DNA of 64,000 nt, taken from Pirellulales bacterium (GTDB taxonomy: Bacteria > Planctomycetota > Planctomycetia > Pirellulales > PALSA-1355). The notes below the pieces were generated by a model. The model did not search any database. It saw nothing but the letters and a program-made list of their open reading frames with translations, and had not been told where the DNA came from. Location: the NCBI GenBank assembly GCA_022844125.1, contig JALHMI010000007.1, forward strand, positions 70,896 through 134,895. Reading direction: 5' to 3'. The first letter of the stretch is position 1; each line of letters opens with the position of its first letter. Below are positions 3-45,430 of this stretch, piece by piece. The position numbers and the translations under genes were made by a program.

Positions 3-86
3 AAACTGCCCGTCGCGCAAACGGCGGAAGTCGCGCCACCGGTGACCATCGATATGCCGGTGGCCGCACCGCAGATGCCGGTCTAG
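3..86 (+). CDS. C-terminal end of an upstream gene (partial)
   Basis: The frame starting at base 3 is open from the window edge to a TAG at 84-86 and reads as a Pro/Val/Ala-rich tail ending in APQMPV. Only 27 residues are visible, so no family can be named. It converges with the minus-strand lipoprotein that ends at 116. Composition fits the low-complexity tail of a secreted or membrane protein, but that is inference. Confidence 0.4.
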   Translation, partial: KLPVAQTAEVAPPVTIDMPVAAPQMPV

Positions 87-115
87 CAGGTCGGCGGATC
101 GGCCGATCCGTCGGC

Positions 116-940
116 CTAAAACTCGCTGCCAGTCGGCGGCAATGGTTCGGGCATCGTCGGCAGTACTTCCGCCGGCATCGCTGGCAGATCCTCCGCGGGC
201 ATACCGACCTGATGAGGAATCGGCAGGACTGCTCCGCCCGTACGGGCCTGAATGCCGGCCAGGATCACCTGCTCCAGTTCAGTGTCCCGACCAATGCCGA
301 TCCACCCCCGAGTCGGTTCTTGACCGCCGACGGGGTTCGTGAGCCGCTGCAAGGCATCGTCGTTACGCAGGGTCTGCGAATTCGCCAGGCTGATCGAGCC
401 GCTTTCGGGTCGGGCGACGTCTTCCAGCTCCTTGTAAACCTGCACGTCGACCTGGAAGCCGCCTTCAACCGGAATCACGTACACCTTGGCTCTCCGCCGC
501 ATCGATTGCAGCGTGGCATGCCACCGCTGGTACGGCGTGACTGAGTCGTGGTTCCACGGTTCGAAGATCGTCGACGCGCCGCGCGGATAGGTTTCCAGGA
601 AGCCTTCGGTCAGGATATCGCCCACGAGCCGCACGCGTTCCTCGTGCTCGACGCGAAAGTAGTCGTCCACAACGTCGACCGTCTGATCCCACACCAGGTC
701 GGGATCCATGTTGCCGATGATCAGCGGGTTGCCCTGAGGCACGATCTCGGGATCGCCGCCAAACAACACGGGCGGGTTGTACGTCGCCGGCTGCCAGGCG
801 TTGCAGCCACAAACCGACGCGAGTACGGCGAAGATCGCAATCACCAGGAACCCCCGGCTGTGCCGATCGCCAGCGCGTACCCCGAGCGCGAATCTCCACA
901 GCGGCCCCGGGTTTGGCCTGTCGCGGTGCATCGAGTTCAT
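116..940 (-). CDS. Conserved lipoprotein, function unknown
   Basis: This is a 274-residue protein from the ATG at 940; an upstream in-frame start at 1069 would add 43 residues that look non-coding. A hydrophobic segment ends in a lipobox (VCGC) at about residues 30-46, so it should be a lipid-anchored envelope protein. The mature part carries a VDDYFRVEHEERV stretch and a Pro/Met-rich C-terminal tail. I recognise no catalytic motif. Proteins of this layout are common in planctomycete genomes without an assigned role. No good Shine-Dalgarno sequence precedes either start, so the exact start is uncertain. Confidence 0.72.
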   Translation of the reverse strand: MNSMHRDRPNPGPLWRFALGVRAGDRHSRGFLVIAIFAVLASVCGCNAWQPATYNPPVLFGGDPEIVPQGNPLIIGNMDPDLVWDQTVDVVDDYFRVEHEERVRLVGDILTEGFLETYPRGASTIFEPWNHDSVTPYQRWHATLQSMRRRAKVYVIPVEGGFQVDVQVYKELEDVARPESGSISLANSQTLRNDDALQRLTNPVGGQEPTRGWIGIGRDTELEQVILAGIQARTGGAVLPIPHQVGMPAEDLPAMPAEVLPTMPEPLPPTGSEF

Positions 941-13405: not shown

Positions 13406-14290
13406 TCAGGCGCGGTGCAAACTTTTGCGATTCTTGGCAGTCGCAGGCTGGTGGGATCTGCGTTGGCAGCGGGCACAGAAAAACGTTGCCCGCTGGGCCT
13501 GCACAATCCTGACAATTTCCACTTTGCCGCAACTCGGACAGACCTCGCCGGCACGGTCGTAGACGCGATGATGGTTCTGGTAACCGCCCTGCTCGTTCAG
13601 CGCGTTGCGGTAGGTTCCGTCCGACAGCGTGGAGCCCTCGTAGCGAATCGCGGTCTCGAGGACCTCGATCATGGCCGCATGCACGCGCTGCCATTCGGCC
13701 GGCCGCAGCAAGTCGCAGCGTTTCTGTGGATGAACGCCCGCCATGTGCAAGAGTTCGCTCGCGTACAGGTTGCCCACTCCGGCGAGTGCGCGTTGGTCTA
13801 GTAGTGCCACTTTGATCTCGCGCCGGCTCTTGCGCAGGCAATCTCGCATCTGCTCGGCCGAGAGGGACAAGGCGTCCGGCCCCAGCTTCGCCAAACCGTA
13901 TAACGTTTCGAACTCCGTGGGCGATACCAGGCGCACCAGCCCCAACCCGCGGCGATCCCAGAACAGCAGTTCGCGGTGTGCTCCGCCTGAAAGCGTGACT
14001 TGTAGGCGCAAATGCTCGCTGGTGGGCGGCGCAGCCAACAGCACCAGTCCGGTCATCCGGGGCTCAAAGATGATCGCGTCCCCCGAGTCGACGCGCACAA
14101 CGACACGCTTGCCCACGCGATCGACGGAAGTGATCGTGCGTCCCTTTACCCGCCGCCGCAGGACATCGATACGTGGTTGAATCAGGATCGGCCGCTTGGC
14201 ACAGGGGGGCCGGCGGACGTCCTTGATGGTGCTGCCCACAATCGGCAGCATGCCCCGCCGCATCGTTTCCACCTCGGGCAGCTCAGGCAC
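13406..14290 (-). CDS. mutM: Formamidopyrimidine-DNA glycosylase
   Basis: A 294-residue base-excision repair glycosylase/AP lyase that removes 8-oxoguanine and formamidopyrimidines. The N-terminus MPELPEVET carries the catalytic Pro2 and Glu3. The helix-two-turn-helix region (ALAGVGNLYASELL) and the C-terminal zinc finger (Cys251, Cys254, Cys272, Cys275) are intact. The start overlaps the comB stop by eight bases, so the two are co-transcribed and translation is probably coupled. Confidence 0.96.
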   Translation of the reverse strand: MPELPEVETMRRGMLPIVGSTIKDVRRPPCAKRPILIQPRIDVLRRRVKGRTITSVDRVGKRVVVRVDSGDAIIFEPRMTGLVLLAAPPTSEHLRLQVTLSGGAHRELLFWDRRGLGLVRLVSPTEFETLYGLAKLGPDALSLSAEQMRDCLRKSRREIKVALLDQRALAGVGNLYASELLHMAGVHPQKRCDLLRPAEWQRVHAAMIEVLETAIRYEGSTLSDGTYRNALNEQGGYQNHHRVYDRAGEVCPSCGKVEIVRIVQAQRATFFCARCQRRSHQPATAKNRKSLHRA

Positions 14291-15050: not shown

Positions 15051-15184
15051 GGCGGACAGTCCGGTCCAGTTTGACGCAACAATGCTCATGATAGCGGACC
15101 GGCTTCCTCGGTCGCGAGGGGGCCGCCTGCCTCGTGTCGTATCTCGCGCTGATCCATTTCCATGTCGCCGTTACAATATGCCGC

Positions 15185-16573
15185 ATGGCATGCCAAGGCT
15201 TGGCCGATTATCTGGAAGTGCTCTCGTCAGGCGGCGATCTCGCGCGAGTCACCGTTCCCGTCGACGCCGATCTGGAACTTGCCGAAATCACCCGTCGCGT
15301 GGCAAACTCGGGCGGACCCGCCCTGCTCTTTGAAAAGGTCGGGTCCGGATCGTTTGCCGTGGCCACGAACCTGTTGGGCACGACCAGGCGGGCCTGCGCG
15401 GCTCTCGGCATCGCTGGGCTCGACGAATTGCCCGACCGCCTCGAAGCGGCCATCGCTGAGCATACGCCGCAAAACTGGTTCGATCGCTTGAAGCTTGCCG
15501 GCCCAGACTCCGGTCTCGAAAAGCTGCGACCGAAGCCCATCAAGCAAGCTCGCTGCCAGCAGGTCGTGCACTTGGGACGCGACGTCGAACTGGCCGCGTT
15601 CCCCTTCGTGCGTGCGGGGCAGCAGGAGACTGCACCGAGCGTCACGGCCGGACTGTGCGTCACCGAGTCGCTTCAGTCCCAGCAGCGTGGCGTCACACGT
15701 CTGCCGCTGGTCGTGCTCGACACCAATCGCCTCGTGGCACAGGATGACGGTAACTCGGCGTTTTCGAGGCACTTCCGCGAACATCAGGCGCGTGGCGAAC
15801 GGATGCCGGCTGCGATCGTCCTGGGAGGTGATCCCGCGCTCTTGCCGCTGTCCGATTTGGCGTTTCCGCCGTCGGTCGACCTGTGGCATCTCGCTGGCAT
15901 TTTGCGAGGGCGTCCTCTCGATGTCATCAAATGTCGCACGCATGAGCTTGTAGTCCCTGCGGACGCCGAACTGATCCTCGAAGGTTATCTTGATCCCGGC
16001 GCTGCCGATGAAATCGGGCCTGTGTTTCACATCGCCGCCATCACCCAGCGCACCAGGGCAATCCTGCCCGCGATTATTGACACCGGCACGCGTGGCGACC
16101 TGGCAAGTCTCGTGAAAGTTCGCGAGCGAGCATTGCTGCCGCAGCTCCGCGCGCTCAACCCGAACATTCGCGACTTTTGCCTGCCGGCAGTGGGCGGTCT
16201 GCATGCCTTCGCCGTGGTTTCGCTGGCCAGTGCGTCGGCCGGGCTCGTGCGCCAGGTTGCGGCGGCAGTCTGGGGAAGTGACGCCCTGAGGTTCACCCGC
16301 TTTCTCGCGATCGTCGACGCGGACGTTGACGTTCAGGACCCACCGCAGGTTCTGTCGGCCATTGGCGCCAACGTCGCGCCGGAGCGCGACGTGTTCATGT
16401 TCGATGGGCCGGCATACTCCGGCGACCTGGAGGTGGCCAGTGCCCAACTTTCCCGGCGAATCGGGATCGACGCCACCTCGAAGGGCGGCTTGCACGCGAC
16501 TTCCAGAGCGGCCGCCGGCGAGGAAACGCTCCGCCTCGTGACCGCCCGCTGGGCCGAGTACGGCCTCTTGTAA
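15185..16573 (+). CDS. mqnL: UbiD-family decarboxylase, probable MqnL
   Basis: A 462-residue UbiD-family enzyme. These use prenylated FMN, made by a UbiX partner, to decarboxylate aromatic or unsaturated acids. The start MACQGLADYLEVLSSGGDLARV is the normal UbiD N-terminus, which places the ATG at 15185. The neighbours are ubiE, a UbiX homologue, a UbiA homologue and mqnE. In futalosine-pathway bacteria the UbiD/UbiX/UbiA homologues of the late steps are named MqnL, MqnM and MqnP, so the likely substrate is the 1,4-dihydroxy-6-naphthoate-derived prenylated acid. The specific assignment rests on gene context, not on residues I can see. Confidence 0.85.
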   Translation: MACQGLADYLEVLSSGGDLARVTVPVDADLELAEITRRVANSGGPALLFEKVGSGSFAVATNLLGTTRRACAALGIAGLDELPDRLEAAIAEHTPQNWFDRLKLAGPDSGLEKLRPKPIKQARCQQVVHLGRDVELAAFPFVRAGQQETAPSVTAGLCVTESLQSQQRGVTRLPLVVLDTNRLVAQDDGNSAFSRHFREHQARGERMPAAIVLGGDPALLPLSDLAFPPSVDLWHLAGILRGRPLDVIKCRTHELVVPADAELILEGYLDPGAADEIGPVFHIAAITQRTRAILPAIIDTGTRGDLASLVKVRERALLPQLRALNPNIRDFCLPAVGGLHAFAVVSLASASAGLVRQVAAAVWGSDALRFTRFLAIVDADVDVQDPPQVLSAIGANVAPERDVFMFDGPAYSGDLEVASAQLSRRIGIDATSKGGLHATSRAAAGEETLRLVTARWAEYGLL

Positions 16574-16707
16574 CCCGGCGGCCAGAAACCGGTCCCGATT
16601 ACCGGTTTATAGCTGCCCTGGTTGTCGGTTATCATCCAGCAGGACGATATGGTGTTGGGCCCGCCGGAGACATCCTGCGGCCGATTCCCCGGGATACGAG
16701 CGGATTC

Positions 16708-17415
16708 ATGGCGGTCGACAAATCGGAAGTCCGCGTGCGGGGCATGTTTGCCGAGATCGCACCGCGCTACGACTTCATGAATCATTTCCTGTCACTGGGG
16801 ACCGACGTCTACTGGCGGTGGCGAACCGTTCGCAAAGTCCGGCCCCAGGGGCATGCGCCGATTCTCGATCTGTGCACGGGCACCGGCGATCTGGCTCTGG
16901 CCTTCCGGAAGGCTTCGACGAATGGAACCGCGGTTGTCGGTGCGGACTTCTGCCATCCCATGCTCGTTCTGGGGCACGACAAGGCCCGCCGGCGCGAAGT
17001 CAGCGGCGTGACGTTTGTCGAGGCCGACGCTCAGCGGTTGCCGTTTCCGGACGACATGTTCCAGATCGTGTCCGTAGCCTTCGGTTTGCGCAATGTCACC
17101 GACACCGACCAGGGCCTGCGCGAGATGCTGCGCGTCTGCCAGAGGGGCGGGCGGATCGCGGTGCTCGAGTTTTCGATGCCGACGCTTCAGCCGTTCCGCT
17201 TCGCCTACGGCTTTTACTTTCGCCACATCCTGCCGAAGATCGGGCAACTTCTGGCGCGCAACCAGCAGGAGGCCTACGACTACCTGCCGGCCAGCGTTGG
17301 CGAGTTCCCGCAGGGCGAAGCCTTGGCCGCGCGAATGCGAGCGGCCGGAGCCAGCCAGGTGAACTACTATCCGTTGACGCTCGGCGTGGCCACGCTCTAT
17401 GTAGGCGTCAAATGA
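16708..17415 (+). CDS. ubiE: Demethylmenaquinone methyltransferase
   Basis: A 235-residue class I SAM-dependent methyltransferase of the UbiE/MenG family, which makes menaquinone from demethylmenaquinone. Family motifs include MFAEIAPRYDFMNHFLSLG near the start, the SAM loop ILDLCTGTGDLAL, and the later DTDQGLREMLRVC, GRIAVLEFSMP and PKIGQLLARNQ segments. It lies second in the menaquinone cluster and its stop overlaps the UbiX-like start (ATGA), so translation is probably coupled. Without ubiquinone genes nearby, menaquinone is the expected substrate. Confidence 0.94.
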   Translation: MAVDKSEVRVRGMFAEIAPRYDFMNHFLSLGTDVYWRWRTVRKVRPQGHAPILDLCTGTGDLALAFRKASTNGTAVVGADFCHPMLVLGHDKARRREVSGVTFVEADAQRLPFPDDMFQIVSVAFGLRNVTDTDQGLREMLRVCQRGGRIAVLEFSMPTLQPFRFAYGFYFRHILPKIGQLLARNQQEAYDYLPASVGEFPQGEALAARMRAAGASQVNYYPLTLGVATLYVGVK

Positions 17416-18101
17416 GCAGCTCCTCGGCAACCGCGCGCAAGCAGATCGTCGTGGCCGTGACCGGCGCGAGCGGCTCGGTCTACGCACTGCGGTTGCTGCA
17501 AACGCTGCTGGCCGCCGAGGCCGACGTCCACCTCTCGATCAGTCCCTCGGCCCGACTCGTATTCAAGCAGGAGCTGGGGATCGACATCGACCTGGCTTCA
17601 TTTCAGCCGGAGCAGTTGCCGCTCAATCGCGACTTGCCTGCCTGGAAGAAGCTATCTCCTGCGATGACCGAAATTCTGTCGCGTCCGCCCGCCAACATCG
17701 TCCCAGCCGACGCACTCGTTTATCACCACCATGACAACCTGATGTCGTCGATCGCCAGCGGGTCGTTCCTGACAGCGGGCATGGTCATTTGCCCCTGCTC
17801 CGGCAGCACGCTGGGAGCGATCGTTCACGGCACGGGAGAAAACCTGATCCATCGGGCCGCCAGCGTGCATCTCAAGGAACGTCGCAAGCTGATTCTCGTT
17901 CCGCGCGAAACACCACTCTCGACGATCCAGCTCGAAAACATGCATCGCGCGGCCGAAGCCGGCGCCGTGATGCTGCCGGCGATGCCCGGCTTCTACCACG
18001 GAGTAAGTTCGATCGGTGACCTGGTCGATTTCGTCGTGGCCCGGATCCTTGATCAACTCGGCATCGAACACGCGCTCATGAAACGTTGGGGAACACTGTA
18101 G
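17412..18101 (+). CDS. mqnM: UbiX-family flavin prenyltransferase, probable MqnM
   Basis: A 229-residue UbiX family protein, which attaches dimethylallyl to FMN to make the prenyl-FMN used by UbiD enzymes. The N-terminal VVAVTGASGSVYALRLLQ flavin loop, the MVICPCSGSTLGAIVHGTGENLIHRAA-type core (seen as CPCSGSTLGAI) and the RKLILVPRETPLS motif are all present. The ATG at 17412 overlaps the ubiE stop by four bases. A longer open frame from 16818 is out-of-frame reading through ubiE and is not part of the protein. Its partner is the UbiD-like protein encoded at the head of the cluster. Confidence 0.93.
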   Translation: MSSSSATARKQIVVAVTGASGSVYALRLLQTLLAAEADVHLSISPSARLVFKQELGIDIDLASFQPEQLPLNRDLPAWKKLSPAMTEILSRPPANIVPADALVYHHHDNLMSSIASGSFLTAGMVICPCSGSTLGAIVHGTGENLIHRAASVHLKERRKLILVPRETPLSTIQLENMHRAAEAGAVMLPAMPGFYHGVSSIGDLVDFVVARILDQLGIEHALMKRWGTL

Positions 18102-18107
18102 AACGTC

Positions 18108-19010
18108 ATGTTTGCTCGCCTGCGGCACATTCTGGAGATGATCCGTTTCAGCCACACGCTGTTCGCGCTGCCGTTTGCGCTTTTGGCGGCGGTGATGGCC
18201 TGGAATGTGACCGACGAGCTCTCCGCGGCGCGCGTATCTCGCGAGCTGCTGGGCATCGTGCTCTGCATGGTCACGGCTCGGAGCGCGGCGATGGCTTTCA
18301 ATCGCATTGCCGACTGGCGGTTCGATGCCGACAATCCGCGCACCAAAATGCGGCACATTCCGGCTGGCACGCTCTCGGTCGCGAGCGTCGTGGCATTCGC
18401 AGTCGCATGCTCGATTGGATTCGTCTTGGCGACCTTGATCTTCCTCCCCAATCGGCTGCCTCTCTACCTTTCCGTTCCGGTCCTGGCCTTCTTGATGGCG
18501 TACAGCCTGTCAAAGCGTTTTACCTCGGCAGCCCACTTCTGGCTGGGCGCAGCGTTGATGCTGGCGCCGATCTCGGCCTGGATCGCGATTCGCGGTGACG
18601 CCGTGCTGGCGGATCCCGCCGATCTACTGCCCGCCGTCGTGCTGGGCGCGGCGGTCATGTTGTGGGTGGCCGGGTTCGACATCATCTACGCTTGCCAGGA
18701 CTACGCATACGATCGCGAAGTTGGCCTGCACAGCGTACCCACCCGGCTGGGCGTGGCGGGAGCCCTGAAGCTTGCCGCCGTTTGCCACCTGGGCATGGTC
18801 CTGCTGCTGGCGGCGCTGCCCTGGGTGTACCCGGAGCTGGGCTGGATTTATGGAGTGGGCATCGCCGCCGTGGCGGCTTTGCTGGCGTACGAGCACTGGC
18901 TTGTTCGGCCCGACGATTTAACCCGCGTCAATGTGGCGTTCTTTCAAGTGAATGCGGTTGTTAGTTTAGGACTGTTCGTGGTGGGCAGCCTGGACCTGTG
19001 GAGCCGCTAG
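18108..19010 (+). CDS. mqnP: UbiA-family prenyltransferase, probable MqnP
   Basis: A 300-residue integral membrane aromatic prenyltransferase with eight or nine predicted helices. The first Asp-rich motif is in NRIADWRFDADNPRT and the second in CQDYAYDREVGLHS; both bind the prenyl diphosphate through magnesium. It starts six bases after the UbiX-like gene. In a cluster with mqnE it most likely prenylates the naphthoquinone precursor of menaquinone; 4-hydroxybenzoate is the usual substrate of UbiA itself, and sequence alone cannot separate these. Confidence 0.9.
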   Translation: MFARLRHILEMIRFSHTLFALPFALLAAVMAWNVTDELSAARVSRELLGIVLCMVTARSAAMAFNRIADWRFDADNPRTKMRHIPAGTLSVASVVAFAVACSIGFVLATLIFLPNRLPLYLSVPVLAFLMAYSLSKRFTSAAHFWLGAALMLAPISAWIAIRGDAVLADPADLLPAVVLGAAVMLWVAGFDIIYACQDYAYDREVGLHSVPTRLGVAGALKLAAVCHLGMVLLLAALPWVYPELGWIYGVGIAAVAALLAYEHWLVRPDDLTRVNVAFFQVNAVVSLGLFVVGSLDLWSR

Positions 19011-19077
19011 CCGTCTGGCCCCCGCGACTGCTAAACTTCGGAAGCAATTCAACGTTCTTCTTGGGATCTTGAAAGCC

Positions 19078-20211
19078 ATGATTCGAGCCTCGGAACCGAC
19101 TCTCGAGACCATTCGCCAAAAAGTCGAAGCTGGCGAGCGTCTGTCCTTCGACGAAGGCCTTTATCTCTATCGCCCCGACGTGTCGCTGCCCGAAGTGGGC
19201 GAGCTGGCAAACCTGGTGCGCGAGCGGAAGAACGGCAATCGCACTTACTACAACATCAACACGCACCTGAACCCCACGAACGTTTGCGTTTATCGCTGTA
19301 TTTTCTGCGCGTTCCGCTCGGACCTCCGCGATCCCAAGGGCTACCTGATGAGCGACGAGCAGATTCTGGCTCGCGGTCAGGAAGCGGTTGATTGCGGCGC
19401 TACCGAGATGCACATCGTCGGCGGACTGCATCACCAAATGAAGTACGACTGGTACCGCAACCTGGTGGCGCTCCTGCACAAGGCCTATCCGCGTCTGCAC
19501 CTTAAGGCCTGGACCGGCGTGGAGCTCGATTGGTTCTGCCGGCAGACGGGATGGTCGATTCGCGAAGTGCTCGAAGATCTGATCGCAGCCGGCTTGGGAA
19601 GTCTTCCCGGCGGCGGCGCCGAAATCTTCCATCCCGAAGTGCGCGACAAGATCTGCGAGCACAAGGCCGACGCCGGCCGCTGGATCGACATTCACCGTAC
19701 GGCTCATCAGCTCGGCCTGCGCAGCAACGCCACGATGCTTTACGGGCACATTGAGAACGCCTTCCACCGGGTCGACCATTTGATTCGCTTGCGCGAGCTC
19801 CAGGACGAGACTGGCGGCTTCCAGACGTTTATTCCGCTGGCCTTTCATCCTGAGAACACCGGCTTGGCCCAGATCAAAAAGCCCTCGGGGCTGATGGACC
19901 TTCGCACGATGGCGGTCAGCCGGCTGATGCTCGACAACTTCGATCACATCAAGGCTTATTGGATCATGCTTGGTATTGGCACAGCGCAAACCGCCCTGGC
20001 GTATGGTGCGGATGATCTCGACGGCACGGTCCGCCACGAACTCATCTATCACGACGCGGGCGCCACGACTCCCGAGGCCTTGAGCGTTGAGGACATCCGC
20101 CGCCTGATCGAGGAAGCCGGCCGGGAACCCGTCGAACGCGACACGCTCTATCACCGCGTGGTCCGCGACGGCAGCCACTGGGAAACGGCCGAGGCGTTGG
20201 CCACGGGCTAA
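19078..20211 (+). CDS. mqnE: Aminofutalosine synthase
   Basis: A 377-residue radical SAM enzyme that joins SAM-derived adenosyl to 3-[(1-carboxyvinyl)oxy]benzoate to give aminofutalosine, the committed start of the futalosine menaquinone pathway. The [4Fe-4S] motif is Cys70-x3-Cys74-x2-Cys77 (CVYRCIFC), with NINTHLNPTN before it and GGLHHQMKYDWY and LGSLPGGGAEIF further on, all characteristic of MqnE/MqnC. MqnE is preferred over MqnC by the LKAWTGVELDWF and RSNATMLYGHIE stretches. The ATG at 19078 is chosen; a TTG at 19069 adds three residues. Confidence 0.92.
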   Translation: MIRASEPTLETIRQKVEAGERLSFDEGLYLYRPDVSLPEVGELANLVRERKNGNRTYYNINTHLNPTNVCVYRCIFCAFRSDLRDPKGYLMSDEQILARGQEAVDCGATEMHIVGGLHHQMKYDWYRNLVALLHKAYPRLHLKAWTGVELDWFCRQTGWSIREVLEDLIAAGLGSLPGGGAEIFHPEVRDKICEHKADAGRWIDIHRTAHQLGLRSNATMLYGHIENAFHRVDHLIRLRELQDETGGFQTFIPLAFHPENTGLAQIKKPSGLMDLRTMAVSRLMLDNFDHIKAYWIMLGIGTAQTALAYGADDLDGTVRHELIYHDAGATTPEALSVEDIRRLIEEAGREPVERDTLYHRVVRDGSHWETAEALATG

Positions 20212-20692: not shown

Positions 20693-22855
20693 CTACCCGA
20701 CATCCCCTAGTTCAAGCGTGTCGCCGTAGCGGATCAAGACCATCCGCCGAAGCTGTCTGAGCTCGGGCTGGGAAAGCTGGGGGTTCTGTTGGATCAAGGG
20801 TACCGCGTCCGCTCGTGCCTGCTCAACCACGGCCGCGTCGCGCAGCAAGTCGGCAACTCGCAGCGGCGGCAACCCGTGTTGCCTGGTTCCGAGCATGTCG
20901 CCCGGGCCGCGCAGCGAAAAGTCGATCTCGGCCAGCTTGAAGCCGTCCTCGTTGTCGACCAGGGCCTGCAAGCGATCTGCCGCCTCTTGCGTTGACGAGC
21001 CCGCGAACAACGTGCAGTAGCCGGGATAGCTGCCCCGGCTCACGCGCCCGCGCAGTTGATGGAGTTGTGCCAGTCCGAAACGTTCGGCGTTTTCGATGGT
21101 CATCAACGTGGCATTCGGCACATCGATCCCCACTTCGACGACTGATGTGGCGACCAGCACCTGAATGTCCCCGCGACGGAAGGCCTCCAGCGCGGCCTGC
21201 TTGTCGTGGCTCGACATCCGGCCATGGACCAGTCCGATGCGGAACGCCTCGAGCTCGCCATTAGCCAGTGCTTCGTAGGCGGCGTCCAAACTCATCGGAG
21301 GTGCTGCCGACCCGTCGTTCGCCTGTTCGGCAAAGTCGGGCTGTTCGAGCTCTTCTTCGGCTTCCTCGATCGGCGTGGCTGTCTTCCGCTCGGCCACCAG
21401 CGGCACGATCACGTAGCCCTGCCGCCCCTCGCGCAGCTTCTTGCGGAAGAACTCCCACCACTGCTCTCGCTGCTCTGGCGCTGGCGCGTAAGTGTGCACG
21501 GCCTGTCGTCCCGGTGGGCGATCGCCCAGCGTCGTCACGTCCAGATCGCCGAACAGCGTCAGTGCGATCGTTCGTGGGATGGGAGTCGCCGTCATCACCA
21601 GGTAGTGCGGCTGCGGACCGGCGTATTTCAGTCTCGCTCTTTGGCGAACCCCGAACTTATGCTGCTCATCGATAATCACCAGCGCCAGCTTGTGGAACTC
21701 GATCTCCGATGAGATCACGGCCTGCGTCCCCACCACGATCTGCGTTTCACCCGAGGCGATACCCGCGAGCGCCGCATGCCGTTCCTTGGCGGTCTGGCCA
21801 CCGGCCAGCCAGCCGATGCGAGTTTGGCTTCCGGCCAGCAGCCGCTCAAGCGTGGCGACGTGCTGCCGGGCGAGCACTTCGGTGGGCGCCATCAGCACCA
21901 CCTGCCCCCCGTGCGCCACAGTCACCAACATTGCATACACGGCCACGATCGTCTTGCCGCTGCCGACGTCCCCTTGCAGCAGTCGGTTCATGGGCAGGCT
22001 CTGGGCCATGTCGGCCGAAATCTCGCGGATCGACTGGTTCTGGCCAGGCGTCAGCTCGAAGGGGAGCAATCTTCGAATCCGGGCATCGATCTTCGCCGTC
22101 GCTTCCAGCGGATAGGCCGCCACGCCGCCGCGCACCTGGGCACGCTTCAGGGCCAACGCCAACTGCAGGACGAACAACTCCTGATAGATCAGCCTGTGCC
22201 GGGCCCGTTCCAGCTCCTCTTGGCTGGCGGGAAAGTGCATCCGCGGTAGCGCCTCGCGCAGCGGCAACAGCCCATGTTCGTGCAAGTAAGGCTCGGGAAA
22301 CACTTCGTCCAACTGGTCGAGGCAGGCCTCCAGAGCCGCTCGAACCAGGGTTCGCAGCCGGTGCTGGTTCAGCCCCTCGGTAAGCGGATAAACGGGCAAT
22401 AGTTCGCCGCGCGCCTCGTCTCCCTCGGCCTCAACGTGTTTCACCAGCGGATGCGACATTTCCCACCGCATTCCGCGCAGCTTGGGCTTTCCGGAAACGA
22501 GGACGGTTTGGCCCGCTCGGAACTTCTCGCGCAGAAACGGCTGGTTGAACCATACGGCTCGCACGTGATGGTTCCCCTGCCGGACCAGCACCGCGACGAT
22601 CGAGCCGCCGCTTCCGGTGCGCGAGGAGTCCACTTCTTCGACCGTGCCCAATACGCTCACGGCCTTGCCTTCTTCGAACTCGGCAATTGCCTGCAATTCG
22701 GTAAGGTCTTGATAGTCGCGCGGAAAGTGGAAGAGCAGGTCGCGAACCGTGCGAATGCCAAGCTTCTCGAGCAGTTCCGCGCGCGCAGTGCCGCACCCTT
22801 TCAGGTACTGCACAGGCGTCATGAGCTGCAGCGGTTGGTCGGCTTGCGGCGGCAT
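20693..22855 (-). CDS. recG: ATP-dependent DNA helicase RecG
   Basis: A 720-residue superfamily 2 helicase that regresses stalled replication forks and branch-migrates Holliday junctions. The N-terminal wedge/OB region (residues about 10-150, TPVQYLKGCG...LLFHFPRDY) precedes the helicase domains with Walker A LQGDVGSGKT, the DEQHKFGV box, TATPIPRT and the C-terminal QLRGRVSRG motif VI. Length is normal. It is the last gene of a minus-strand run beginning at rnhA; rnhA also removes RNA from DNA, so the pairing suits replication repair. Confidence 0.96.
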   Translation of the reverse strand: MPPQADQPLQLMTPVQYLKGCGTARAELLEKLGIRTVRDLLFHFPRDYQDLTELQAIAEFEEGKAVSVLGTVEEVDSSRTGSGGSIVAVLVRQGNHHVRAVWFNQPFLREKFRAGQTVLVSGKPKLRGMRWEMSHPLVKHVEAEGDEARGELLPVYPLTEGLNQHRLRTLVRAALEACLDQLDEVFPEPYLHEHGLLPLREALPRMHFPASQEELERARHRLIYQELFVLQLALALKRAQVRGGVAAYPLEATAKIDARIRRLLPFELTPGQNQSIREISADMAQSLPMNRLLQGDVGSGKTIVAVYAMLVTVAHGGQVVLMAPTEVLARQHVATLERLLAGSQTRIGWLAGGQTAKERHAALAGIASGETQIVVGTQAVISSEIEFHKLALVIIDEQHKFGVRQRARLKYAGPQPHYLVMTATPIPRTIALTLFGDLDVTTLGDRPPGRQAVHTYAPAPEQREQWWEFFRKKLREGRQGYVIVPLVAERKTATPIEEAEEELEQPDFAEQANDGSAAPPMSLDAAYEALANGELEAFRIGLVHGRMSSHDKQAALEAFRRGDIQVLVATSVVEVGIDVPNATLMTIENAERFGLAQLHQLRGRVSRGSYPGYCTLFAGSSTQEAADRLQALVDNEDGFKLAEIDFSLRGPGDMLGTRQHGLPPLRVADLLRDAAVVEQARADAVPLIQQNPQLSQPELRQLRRMVLIRYGDTLELGDVG

Positions 22856-22915: not shown

Positions 22916-23275
22916 CTAGTCGGCTAGTCCGTCGTCATCCGGCCCTAGTGGCAATTCCGGCAGCAAGATCCCAAGATTGGCATCCAGGAGTTTCCACTCC
23001 GCAATTATTGGCGCGAAACTCTCTGGCTCATCGGTCACTTGATGGAATTCCGCTGACATGTGGACCCGCTGCCAACCAGAAACATCCGCCAGAAAAACTT
23101 CGAGTCGCGCGTCTGCGAAGCGGTCCAGATTTTCAATCGCATCGGCATATTGCCAATGCAACTGGCGAAGTAACAGGTCGAGCGAGCTCGGAATCTCTGC
23201 CCACTCCAACGGCTCAACATAGATGCGTGCAATCGATTTCAGAAGCGTATCGATGATCTGCTGGGCGGATTTCAT
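22916..23275 (-). CDS. Small hypothetical protein (119 aa)
   Basis: A soluble acidic 119-residue protein without signal peptide or membrane span; it has a Trp-containing core (VEPLEWAEIP, WQRVHMSAEFHQV) and an Asp-rich C-terminus. I recognise no family. It lies between rnhA and recG on the same strand with short gaps (60-70 bases), so it may be in their operon. Composition and codon use look coding. Confidence 0.6.
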   Translation of the reverse strand: MKSAQQIIDTLLKSIARIYVEPLEWAEIPSSLDLLLRQLHWQYADAIENLDRFADARLEVFLADVSGWQRVHMSAEFHQVTDEPESFAPIIAEWKLLDANLGILLPELPLGPDDDGLAD

Positions 23276-23346: not shown

Positions 23347-23823
23347 TTACTTCCGCCCTAAGAACTGCTGATACGCCGCCACGGCCAGCACATCGCAGCG
23401 ATCGTTCTCGGGATGGCCGCTATGCCCTGCCACGCGGATGTAGGTCAGCTTATGCTCGCGGATCAGCTCGTCGAGCCGCCGCCAGAGATCCTCGTTCTTG
23501 ACCTCTTTCCAGGACGTTCCCTCGCGACGCCGCCAGCCGTTGGCTTTCCACTTGGGCATCCATTCCGAAAGTCCCTTGCCGACGTACACGCTGTCGGTCA
23601 TCAGCTTCACCTGCGAGGGCTTCTTCAGCACTTCCAGCCCCCGGACCACGGCCGTCAACTCCATCCGATTGTTCGTCGTCTCGCGCTCGCCGCCCGAGGA
23701 TTCCATCTCCTTGCCGGTCGCCGGATGACGCAGGATGAAGGCCCAACCGCCCGGGCCGGGATTTCCGCTGCACCCGCCATCGGTGTACAACTCAACTTCA
23801 GGAAGTGAATTCGCAGGAGGCAT
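23347..23823 (-). CDS. rnhA: Ribonuclease HI
   Basis: A 158-residue RNase HI that cuts the RNA strand of RNA-DNA hybrids. All active-site residues are visible: Asp in YTDGGCSGNPG, Glu in NNRMELTAV, Asp in LMTDSVYV, and the His/Asp pair in GHSGHPENDRCDVLA. The basic protrusion WKANGWRRREG is the substrate-binding handle of the E. coli type. It lies upstream of the small protein gene and recG. Confidence 0.96.
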   Translation of the reverse strand: MPPANSLPEVELYTDGGCSGNPGPGGWAFILRHPATGKEMESSGGERETTNNRMELTAVVRGLEVLKKPSQVKLMTDSVYVGKGLSEWMPKWKANGWRRREGTSWKEVKNEDLWRRLDELIREHKLTYIRVAGHSGHPENDRCDVLAVAAYQQFLGRK

Positions 23824-23882: not shown

Positions 23883-25601
23883 CTACGACGTTTGCGCCGG
23901 CGCTTCCAGCCGGATCGGTTCGCGACGCGCCTTGTTCGAGTCTTCCACGCCCGGCGCCGGCAGCGCATCCGACCGCGGGACATCGCCGCGCGTCCAGGGG
24001 AGCCGCACGGTAAAGACGCTCCCCTTGCCGAGCTCACTCTCCAGTGAAATCTCGCCGCCCAGCAGCTTGCACAATTCTTTGACGATCGAGAGCCCCAGCC
24101 CCGTGCCGGAGTACTCGCGCGTCATGGCGTCGCCCCCCTTGAGCACCGACTTGCCCTGGCGGAATTTCTCGAAGATGGCGACCTGGTCTTCCTCGGCGAT
24201 GCCCACGCCCGTGTCCGCCACCATCATCACCAGGTACGCGCCCGTGCCCCGGCGAACGCTCACGACGATCCGCCCCCCCTCGGGCGTAAACTTGATCGCG
24301 TTCGAAAGCAGATTGTTCAGGATCTGCTGCACCTTGGCCTGGTCCTGGAACATCTCCGGCAGATTCGGCTCGACTTCCATTTCCAGGTCGATATTCTTCC
24401 GCTCGGTCAACGGCCGAGCCATGTCGCACTGGGCCGTGATCACCGGCTCGACGCGGAAATCCGACAGCCGGACCTCCATTCGGCCGCTTTCGATCTTTGC
24501 CAGATCGAGAATGTCGTTGATCATCTCGAGCAGCACTTTGCCCGAGGTCTGGATGTTCCGCACGTAGCGTTTCTGCTTCTCGTCGAGCGAGGCGATCGAT
24601 TCCAGCACATCGCTAAAACCGATGATGGCGTTCAGCGGGGTCCGCAGCTCATGGCTCATTGTGGCCAGAAAGTCGCTCTTCAGGCGGTTCATCTCATAGA
24701 GCCGCATGTTCGCCTGCGCGAGCTCATCCACCTTCACATTCAGGTTGTTATTGACGTCCTTCAGCTCCTCGGCATTCGAAGCAAGTTGCCTGAGCATTCG
24801 GTTGAACGCAGTGGCCAGTCGCTCAAACTCGTCGCCGGTGTGCAGGTCGGCGCGCAGCGAGATATCCCCCTGGCTGATCCGATCGCTGACGTCGCGCAGG
24901 TGACCCAGCGGCTTGACGATGATGTAACGCACGATCAGGTAGCTCGCCATCACGGCCAGGAATGCGGTGATGATGGCCGTCCCCAACAGAATCGCGTTGT
25001 TCCAGGTGAGCGCGGTCTGCGTCTGCTTGTCGGGCATTCGCAGCTTGAGAACCGAAACCAGGTCGCCGACGTTTTGCGAGGCGAGGTTTGCCACCCCGAT
25101 GTTCATGCTTTCGTGGCACGTAACGCACCGCTGATTCGTGAAGCGGATCGGCTTATAGAACAAGTACTCGGGATTTTCGCCCCCCACGCGCGCATCCGCA
25201 TACTCCGCATCAAGATCACTCTCGGGCCCCGAGTGAGAACCCAGGTTGAACTTGCGAATGACGGCCATGTCGCTTTCGCTGGGTGCGTTGGGACCCTCGT
25301 TGACCAATCGCAAGAACTGCCAGTCGTAATCCCGTCCCTTCAGGCCGTCCTTCAGATCCGCAATCAGCTCCTTCTCCTGCTCGTCCTGCGACCAGGACGC
25401 GGTGTGGTGAATCGCCAGGATCGAGACCACGAGGCTCTTGGCGCTTTCGGTGCTCGAGTCGTACACCAGCTTTTCGGTGCTGCGGCCGTACCACCAGAAG
25501 CTGCCCGCAATCAGGATCAAAAGCGATGCGCCGAACAGCAGCAGGAACTTTCGTTCCAGACTGGTCTCGCCGAGGACGCGCTTTAACGTGCGATAAGACA
25601 T
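23883..25601 (-). CDS. Membrane sensor histidine kinase with a c-type heme motif
   Basis: A 572-residue kinase. Membrane helix 1 is at residues 18-36, the periplasmic sensor is about 37-200, helix 2 is 202-226, HAMP is about 228-280, then a short coiled coil, the HisKA domain with phospho-accepting His317 in MSHELRTPLN, and an HATPase domain with N-box NNLLSNAIKF, VADTGVGIAE and GTGLGLSI. The sensor contains CVTCH (Cys159, Cys162, His163) after YKPIRFTNQR, a single covalent heme c site as in Tll0287/DUF3365-type sensors. It should sense redox state, NO, CO or O2. No response regulator is adjacent, so its partner is unknown. The C-terminal 30 residues are a disordered tail. Confidence 0.9.
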   Translation of the reverse strand: MSYRTLKRVLGETSLERKFLLLFGASLLILIAGSFWWYGRSTEKLVYDSSTESAKSLVVSILAIHHTASWSQDEQEKELIADLKDGLKGRDYDWQFLRLVNEGPNAPSESDMAVIRKFNLGSHSGPESDLDAEYADARVGGENPEYLFYKPIRFTNQRCVTCHESMNIGVANLASQNVGDLVSVLKLRMPDKQTQTALTWNNAILLGTAIITAFLAVMASYLIVRYIIVKPLGHLRDVSDRISQGDISLRADLHTGDEFERLATAFNRMLRQLASNAEELKDVNNNLNVKVDELAQANMRLYEMNRLKSDFLATMSHELRTPLNAIIGFSDVLESIASLDEKQKRYVRNIQTSGKVLLEMINDILDLAKIESGRMEVRLSDFRVEPVITAQCDMARPLTERKNIDLEMEVEPNLPEMFQDQAKVQQILNNLLSNAIKFTPEGGRIVVSVRRGTGAYLVMMVADTGVGIAEEDQVAIFEKFRQGKSVLKGGDAMTREYSGTGLGLSIVKELCKLLGGEISLESELGKGSVFTVRLPWTRGDVPRSDALPAPGVEDSNKARREPIRLEAPAQTS

Positions 25602-45004: not shown

Positions 45005-45430
45005 TCACGGGTGGACCCGGTCGGCTCCCGGCGCGCCGCCGACACAGTGACCGGCCTCCGCCGCTGAGGTCACCGCGTCAATCCGCCGGACCAACTCCCG
45101 GGGGCTGAACGGCTTGGCGACGATGTCAATGATCCCCCACCGCTCCATCAGCTCTTGCTGCTCAAGTTCATAGCCTTTGGCAGTGAGCATCAGGATGGGC
45201 AAGTCGCGGGTCCGCTCGTCCTGGCGAATGCGCTGGCTAAGTTCAAAGCCATCGCACCTCGGCATCTGCACGTCGGTTACCAGGATGTCCGGCAGATCGT
45301 CCAGGATCATCTGCCAGGCTTGCTCACCATCGCGTGCGATGCGGACGTCGTACCCCGCGCGCGAGACCTTCAGCTCGGCTGCTTTGAGAATGTGAATCTC
45401 GTCATCGCAGAGCAGGACTTTCTTCGTCAT
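45005..45430 (-). CDS. Response regulator, receiver domain only
   Basis: A 141-residue CheY-like receiver. The acidic pocket (LLCDDE), the phosphorylation site Asp in LVTDVQMPRCDG, the Thr in ILMLTAKG and the Lys in VAKPFSPRELVRRI are all present. No output domain follows; a disordered tail ends the protein. The start overlaps the kinase stop by four bases (ATGA), so it is the partner of that kinase. It probably works by binding another protein or a diguanylate-type partner rather than DNA. Confidence 0.92.
   Translation of the reverse strand: MTKKVLLCDDEIHILKAAELKVSRAGYDVRIARDGEQAWQMILDDLPDILVTDVQMPRCDGFELSQRIRQDERTRDLPILMLTAKGYELEQQELMERWGIIDIVAKPFSPRELVRRIDAVTSAAEAGHCVGGAPGADRVHP

Follow-up and report, generated by a model that had tools for sequence, protein, structure and literature searches.

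Heme-c Cache domains have already been described as a family, sCache_heme (PF11845, DUF3365/Tll0287-like), by Deshpande et al. in a 2026 preprint (PMC12889525). In this family, the heme attachment motif lies on a short helix with strands 3 and 4 on either side. A stand-alone member is Cys/His-ligated, and a TM-HAMP member is thought to hold water as the sixth ligand of the iron. The TM-HAMP sCache_heme protein of P. azotoformans releases NO slowly (koff 6.25e-4 per s), a behavior that was generalised to signalling fusions (PMC12889525). The proposed NO sensors, the signalling group (Cluster 2) of the family, are characterised by tight NO binding and the lack of a stable O2 complex. The extracellular domain of WalK (4ywz), which has neither heme motif nor heme, serves as the plain sCache comparison in the same preprint.

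Periplasmic heme c sensors with helices on the distal side of the heme are also found in the Geobacter chemoreceptors GSU0582 and GSU0935 (3b47 and 3b42), whose output is chemotaxis and whose distal ligand is Met or water. In GSU0935, Met60 is a redox-dependent distal ligand and the heme lies beside the N-terminal helices (PMC8396549).

Here, we compare these systems with a sensor histidine kinase encoded in the window, that is, the whole stretch of 64,000 nucleotides that was analysed. In common with sCache_heme (PMC12889525), the kinase has a short CXXCH-bearing helix flanked by two late strands, a predicted Cache fold and a TM-HAMP signalling fusion. By contrast, the candidate ligand is a conserved His on helix 1 rather than an axial Cys or water, CX3CH is frequent, the gene is single-copy across its class, and heme has been lost within one kinase lineage. 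The main text of PMC12889525 mentions neither planctomycetes nor CXXXCH. Our literature search found no paper combining planctomycetes, c-type heme and histidine kinase, and the class-wide single copy, the link between His66 and heme, the CX3CH forms and the repeated heme loss were not found in print. The main text of a study of essential genes in Planctopirus limnophila (PMC10632474) had no match to the terms used.

Results

A minus-strand histidine kinase with a heme c motif between two membrane helices

The kinase is an open reading frame of 572 amino acids read on the minus strand from 25601 to 23883; the plus strand there is not the gene (Table 1). Pfam and hydropathy give the order TM1, periplasmic domain with C159-V-T-C162-H163, TM2, HAMP, HisKA and HATPase. 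An earlier note on this DNA had placed a CxxCH motif at Cys159, Cys162 and His163 between two membrane helices; the residues are exact, and the helices lie at about 17-39 and 200-230. The only other cysteines of the kinase are 392 and 511, and when its sequence was shuffled 20,000 times, CxxCH arose by chance in 6 cases. The Pfam domains HisKA and HATPase_c, with the phospho-His H317 read off the sequence, make the protein a two-component histidine kinase of the HisKA type, and the fusion of the sensor to TM-HAMP and a signalling output is a trait that it shares with the signalling group (Cluster 2) of sCache_heme.

Table 1. Features of the kinase and its downstream neighbors, in window coordinates.
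Feature	Position	Strand	Basis
Sensor histidine kinase, periplasmic heme-c Cache (PF11845 / sCache_heme), 572 aa	23883..25601	-	ORF, Pfam, model, fold
TM1, residues ~17-39	25485..25553	-	Hydropathy; model helix 14-70 runs on into periplasm
His66 codon, candidate distal heme ligand	25404..25406	-	Invariant in 59/59 of alignment A1
CVTCH, residues 159-163, heme c attachment motif, short helix 157-165	25113..25127	-	Model, sequence
TM2, residues ~200-230	24912..25004	-	Hydropathy
HAMP, residues 226-273	24783..24926	-	Pfam
HisKA, residues 308-373, phospho-acceptor H317 (read off sequence)	24483..24680	-	Pfam
HATPase_c, residues 420-536	23994..24344	-	Pfam
Next gene downstream, 59 bp from the kinase, ribonuclease HI-like	23347..23823	-	ORF; presumed name
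RecG-like helicase gene, further downstream	20693..22855	-	ORF; presumed name

The sensor belongs, by sequence and predicted fold, to the sCache_heme family

The kinase scores at the threshold of PF11845 (24.0, 25.1 and 25.2 bits in separate runs; cut-off 24.1), and 51 of its 59 relatives in alignment A1 match this family at E <= 0.01. When compared with the PDB, the profile of the 59 sequences found Tll0287 (5b82) at E 5.3e-4. The sensor alone (173 aa, window 25000-25520) gave no phmmer match in the PDB at E <= 1, 5b82 being reached by the 59-sequence profile only.

We modeled 300 residues with AF2 from the 59 sequences (mean pLDDT 84.3). The model consists of helices 14-70 and 74-88, strands 93-97, 135-139 and 145-153, the motif-bearing helix 157-165 and strand 181-190, followed by TM2. 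The CVTCH helix is thus predicted to sit between strands 145-153 and 181-190. Foldseek, run with the same model, gave its highest rank to a computed model of WalK and had meganucleases in the noise. A second look was taken with VIA-align. Among the matches listed, 5b82 was the top experimental structure (Z 8.0, 125 aligned residues, rmsd 4.5). WalK 4ywz scored Z 7.6, WalK and chemoreceptor sensor domains together Z 6-7.6, and 3b42 Z 5.0, all values below 8, which can reflect a common arrangement. GSU0582 (3b47) was not seen among the 50 VIA-align matches listed, an absence that is not informative.

The comparison with Tll0287 structures that the earlier note had proposed finds likeness in both profile and fold. 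Because of the profile match to 5b82, the fold match and a motif placed as in the preprint, we assign the sensor to a known family: judged from its sequence and model, it is a heme-c Cache domain (PF11845 / sCache_heme). The earlier reading, in which a standard kinase receives its input from a domain with covalent heme, is supported by PF11845, the 5b82 profile match, the fold, the invariance of C-C-H and the presence of PF01578 in the genome, and the periplasmic sensor is predicted very probably to carry a permanently attached heme. Tll0287 differs in being a stand-alone protein with Cys/His ligation, its Cys lying further on, at chain index 68 by alignment. WalK shares the Cache fold and the kinase architecture but not the heme.

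The same genome encodes a second, stand-alone PF11845 protein (L001:1435-1992; C12:193779-194123) of 185 amino acids with a signal-peptide-like start and the motif CLKCH; it adjoins ParA-like and ABC-permease-like genes.

The kinase is a near-universal single-copy gene of its class

We assembled two samples of relatives. A scan of one genome per species with six peptide patterns yielded 80 loci, nearly all titled Planctomycetota. One of the six patterns held the motif, and all 80 loci also carry a pattern from downstream of HAMP or from the kinase part, so the sample does not hinge on the heme motif. C159, C162 and H163 occur in all 80 rows that cover the site (the window and 79 loci); in nine rows, three residues separate the cysteines (CX3CH). 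The second sample consisted of 98 genomes of the window's class, of which 97 contain one kinase match at E <= 1e-80. This threshold separates the kinase from others, since the next best kinase in its own genome matches at 5e-54. The genome without it (G057, listed as 98% complete) has weaker kinases only. The kinase is thus a near-universal single-copy gene in its own class.

Taking together the 80 scan loci and 96 class loci, sets that may overlap in species, C-C-H is present in 173 of 176 own-class relatives, that is, in all 173 whose sensor is covered. Of the remaining three, L063 runs off the end of its contig, and L186 and L187 are without the whole sensor. The spacing is CX2CH in 133 loci, CX3CH in 37, CX4CH in one and a double CX2CH in two, the other three having none. 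The cytochrome c assembly protein PF01578 is encoded in all 98 class genomes, including the kinase's own. Records titled goat, buffalo, deer and other gut bins retain the motif in the scan sample, and it is therefore unlikely that the motif requires aerobic life.

Six records titled Nealsonbacteria, Kuenenia or Alphaproteobacteria contain kinases 50-55% identical to that of the window; these are probably mislabelled or mixed bins.

The heme motif, and once the whole sensor, has been lost

In a second planctomycete class, which may be Phycisphaerae, 58 of 61 genomes have a kinase match at E <= 1e-60, one each except for G333, which has two. With one kinase counted for each of the 58 genomes, the heme motif is present in 37 and missing from 21. 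Conservation of CxxCH in orthologues, on which the earlier note had staked its reading, thus holds for the sensor-bearing orthologues of the kinase's own class and fails in 21 of 58 second-class relatives. Within the own class, the sister genomes G066 and G046 (L186 and L187) have kept TM1, TM2 and the kinase and deleted the sensor. Because the kinase persists there despite this deletion, it does something without heme in these genomes.

A histidine on the first helix tracks the heme motif

H66 is invariant in all 59 sequences of A1. We examined this position in an alignment of 232 rows, comprising 209 heme-bearing and 21 heme-less sensors, with L186 and L187 outside the table of His windows. 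Left out beforehand were L030, L045 and L063, cut by contig ends, and L261, the second match in G333; L202-L209 were left out of alignment and tree as other kinases. His lies exactly at 66 in 182 of 209 heme-bearing sensors and in none of the 21 heme-less ones. Within residues 65-69, a window set after the strict-position counts had been seen, the numbers are 204/209 and 0/21 (Fisher p 2e-25, kinship not corrected for). Six other five-residue windows displayed no such link, save for 45-49, where it ran in the opposite direction (p 0.008). Between residues 40 and 205 of the 209 heme-bearing rows, His, Met, Cys or Lys is conserved above 60% at 66, 159, 162 and 163 only; Tyr146 and Tyr148 likewise exceed 60%.

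The exceptions are few. L109 and L218 have Cys in place of His at 66, the ligand type of Tll0287. L181 and L183 have a His one or two places before the 65-69 window, and L164 keeps the heme motif with no His at 65-69 or nearby; all three have a Cys some five residues further on.

On a tree of the kinase part (90 of the 232 rows, L201 left out), the heme state changes five times, one change (L186) being the deletion of the whole sensor. In four independent pairs on supported branches, His follows heme in 3.4 on average and never goes the opposite way; the number of independent changes is too small for this test to reach significance (sign test p 0.125-0.5). Judging from the alignments, we conclude that His66 works together with the heme, and the simplest reading of these sequences makes it a candidate distal iron ligand.

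We considered equating His66 with the axial Cys of Tll0287, whose ligands we take to be 'Cys46/His145', and dropped this idea: in the 5b82 chain, index 46 is Ile, and the Cys is at index 68. By ungapped extension, H66 falls near index 46, and Cys 68 is on what looks like the next helix (VIA-align end points 46..197 of the model to 26..186 of 5b82). The sensor has no axial Cys like that of Tll0287, and the conserved His66 is the candidate for the sixth position.

Neighboring genes vary between lineages

Directly downstream of the kinase is a gene that we take to be ribonuclease HI-like, and further on one that is presumably RecG-like (Table 1). An RNase HI-like gene follows the kinase in 34 of 69 scan loci with sufficient sequence, a PriA-like gene precedes it in 26 of 63, and among class loci with sufficient sequence, 39 of 73 have the kinase immediately preceded, on its own strand, by a gene for a MutM-like protein (8-oxoguanine glycosylase). 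The window has its MutM-like gene at 13406-14290. A 119-amino acid open reading frame without a Pfam match (22916-23275, minus strand) separates the RNase HI-like and RecG-like genes. In agreement with the earlier note, which saw no cytochrome gene nearby, the window contains no other CxxCH open reading frame of at least 100 amino acids, except for one that overlaps the recG-like gene in a different frame.

On the plus strand, 15134-20211 holds UbiD, UbiE, a gene that we take to be UbiX-like, UbiA and CofH/MqnC-like in a row, directed towards the side of the kinase cluster where recG lies. This row is a menaquinone-type biosynthesis set.

As a clue to the pathway, the neighbors were discarded: PriA, RNase HI, RecG, MutM, ParA and NusA-like genes differ between lineages, and the menaquinone-type set is on the other strand. 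Because the neighbors vary in this way, we do not claim a functional operon.

A tentative partner regulator

The kinase's own genome has 48 receiver-family matches, 47 of them above the cut-off. The nearest is about 19.5 kb away (window 45080-45418) beside a kinase of its own, which upholds the earlier statement that no response regulator is nearby. In other genomes, a receiver gene was found near the kinase in 2 of the 96 class loci, in 6 of the 58 loci from the second class and in none of the 80 from the scan; three Gimesia-like scan loci have, at a distance of about 5 kb, a partial gene of the NtrC type that this search missed. In two genomes of one own-class genus (G003 and G026), a regulator is directly downstream of the kinase on the same strand, and in one second-class family (f94, seven genomes sampled) six loci have a regulator divergent from it.

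Regulators from four of these eight loci (L173, L230, L232 and L235) were compared with the kinase's own genome, and for each the best match there is the same NtrC-type regulator, C16:32974-34335, with identities of 52% and 45-47% and a lead of 58 to 142 bits over the next. In the class sample, 96 of 98 genomes contain a single match to this regulator at E <= 1e-125. Within the kinase's own genome, the gene before it encodes a sensorless kinase of 246 amino acids (the two adjoin at L292:1501-4008), and the same pairing with a sensorless kinase recurs in 22 of the 30 loci inspected among those 96. The sigma-54 loop of the regulator has the sequence GAFTDA in place of GAFTGA. Neighborhood in two separate lineages makes this regulator a tentative candidate partner of the heme kinase; its usual place beside a sensorless kinase and its GAFTDA loop count against the pairing.

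Discussion

Proposed mechanism

Taken as a whole, the account that we find probable is that of an sCache_heme-type sensor kinase with H66 as distal ligand, relaying its signal to a regulator encoded elsewhere. As motif and family suggest, C159 and C162 would bind heme c on the periplasmic side, and H163 would be its proximal ligand. The long first helix bears H66 close to its end; at rest, this residue is probably the distal ligand, and the heme would then probably be bis-His and six-coordinate. A periplasmic redox change, or NO displacing H66, would release or tighten the first helix, which is continuous with TM1, and this movement would pass through TM2/HAMP to the kinase. The kinase would then phosphorylate its regulator, for which the class-wide single-copy NtrC-type protein is the best candidate, if a doubtful one.

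What the heme senses

A His ligand fits neither the NO-sensor member (water) nor Geobacter (Met) exactly, and either redox or NO may be the signal. For the signal and the partner, which the earlier note had left unnamed, candidates are now proposed. The link from electron-transfer state to gene regulation that the earlier note ascribed to such kinases may apply here; among signalling relatives, the closest one with measurements was read as a sensor of nitric oxide (PMC12889525).

A periplasmic redox sensor like GSU0582/GSU0935, in which the oxidation state shifts distal ligation and spin state and hence helix position, is a serious possibility, somewhat short of an even one. Met60 of GSU0935 (PMC8396549) would have its analogue in the His that is conserved on the first helix. 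A menaquinone-type gene set (UbiD, UbiE, UbiA, CofH/MqnC-like) lies less than 10 kb from the kinase, but on the opposite strand, and an MqnE-like gene is near the kinase in 7 of 80 scan loci and in 0 of 96 class loci, the latter with flanks of about 4 kb. Moreover, in bis-His hemes the ligand is often unchanged on reduction.

That the kinase is instead a dedicated NO sensor, switched by tight NO binding at a labile sixth ligand, seems to us rather unlikely. The architecture is that of the P. azotoformans TM-HAMP protein with its slow NO release (PMC12889525), and the window kinase has no Tll0287-like axial Cys; however, conservation of His66 points to ligation by the protein itself at the place where water was proposed for the P. 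azotoformans protein.

Still less probable, in our judgement, is a housekeeping kinase with a structural heme, in which a small ligand or a second protein is what the Cache domain detects. The retention of the kinase without the heme motif (21 of 58 second-class loci) or without the whole sensor (2 of 96 own-class loci) speaks for this reading, as do its MutM-, PriA- and RNase HI-like housekeeping neighbors, but the invariance of C-C-H in own-class sensors, with H66 tracking it, is not obviously needed for a structural heme. Finally, although CxxCH may occur outside cytochromes, a metal or disulfide site with no heme at all is very improbable given the family and fold match to a crystallised heme c protein, PF01578 in every sampled class genome, and CX3CH and CX4CH variants that preserve the C-C-H order.

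Implications

At its widest, our reading would describe a core, vertically inherited planctomycete heme-c pathway, in which a bis-His Cache kinase signals to an equally universal regulator of the NtrC type, and a second kinase, without a sensor, uses this regulator too; heme and His ligand would have been dropped together in several lineages, and the whole sensor in one genus. We put this forward as a speculation more likely wrong than right. A single-copy sensor kinase across nearly a whole class is unusual. The repeated joint loss of heme and His66 within one kinase lineage constitutes a natural mutant series for the gain and loss of a Cache cofactor. The kinase also bears on the recent claim that signalling sCache_heme members sense NO and leave the sixth position open (PMC12889525). 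Because a near-universal kinase has its predicted heme input outside the cytoplasm, a central process of planctomycetes may be under the control of redox state or NO in the periplasm, the rumen and gut lineages included.
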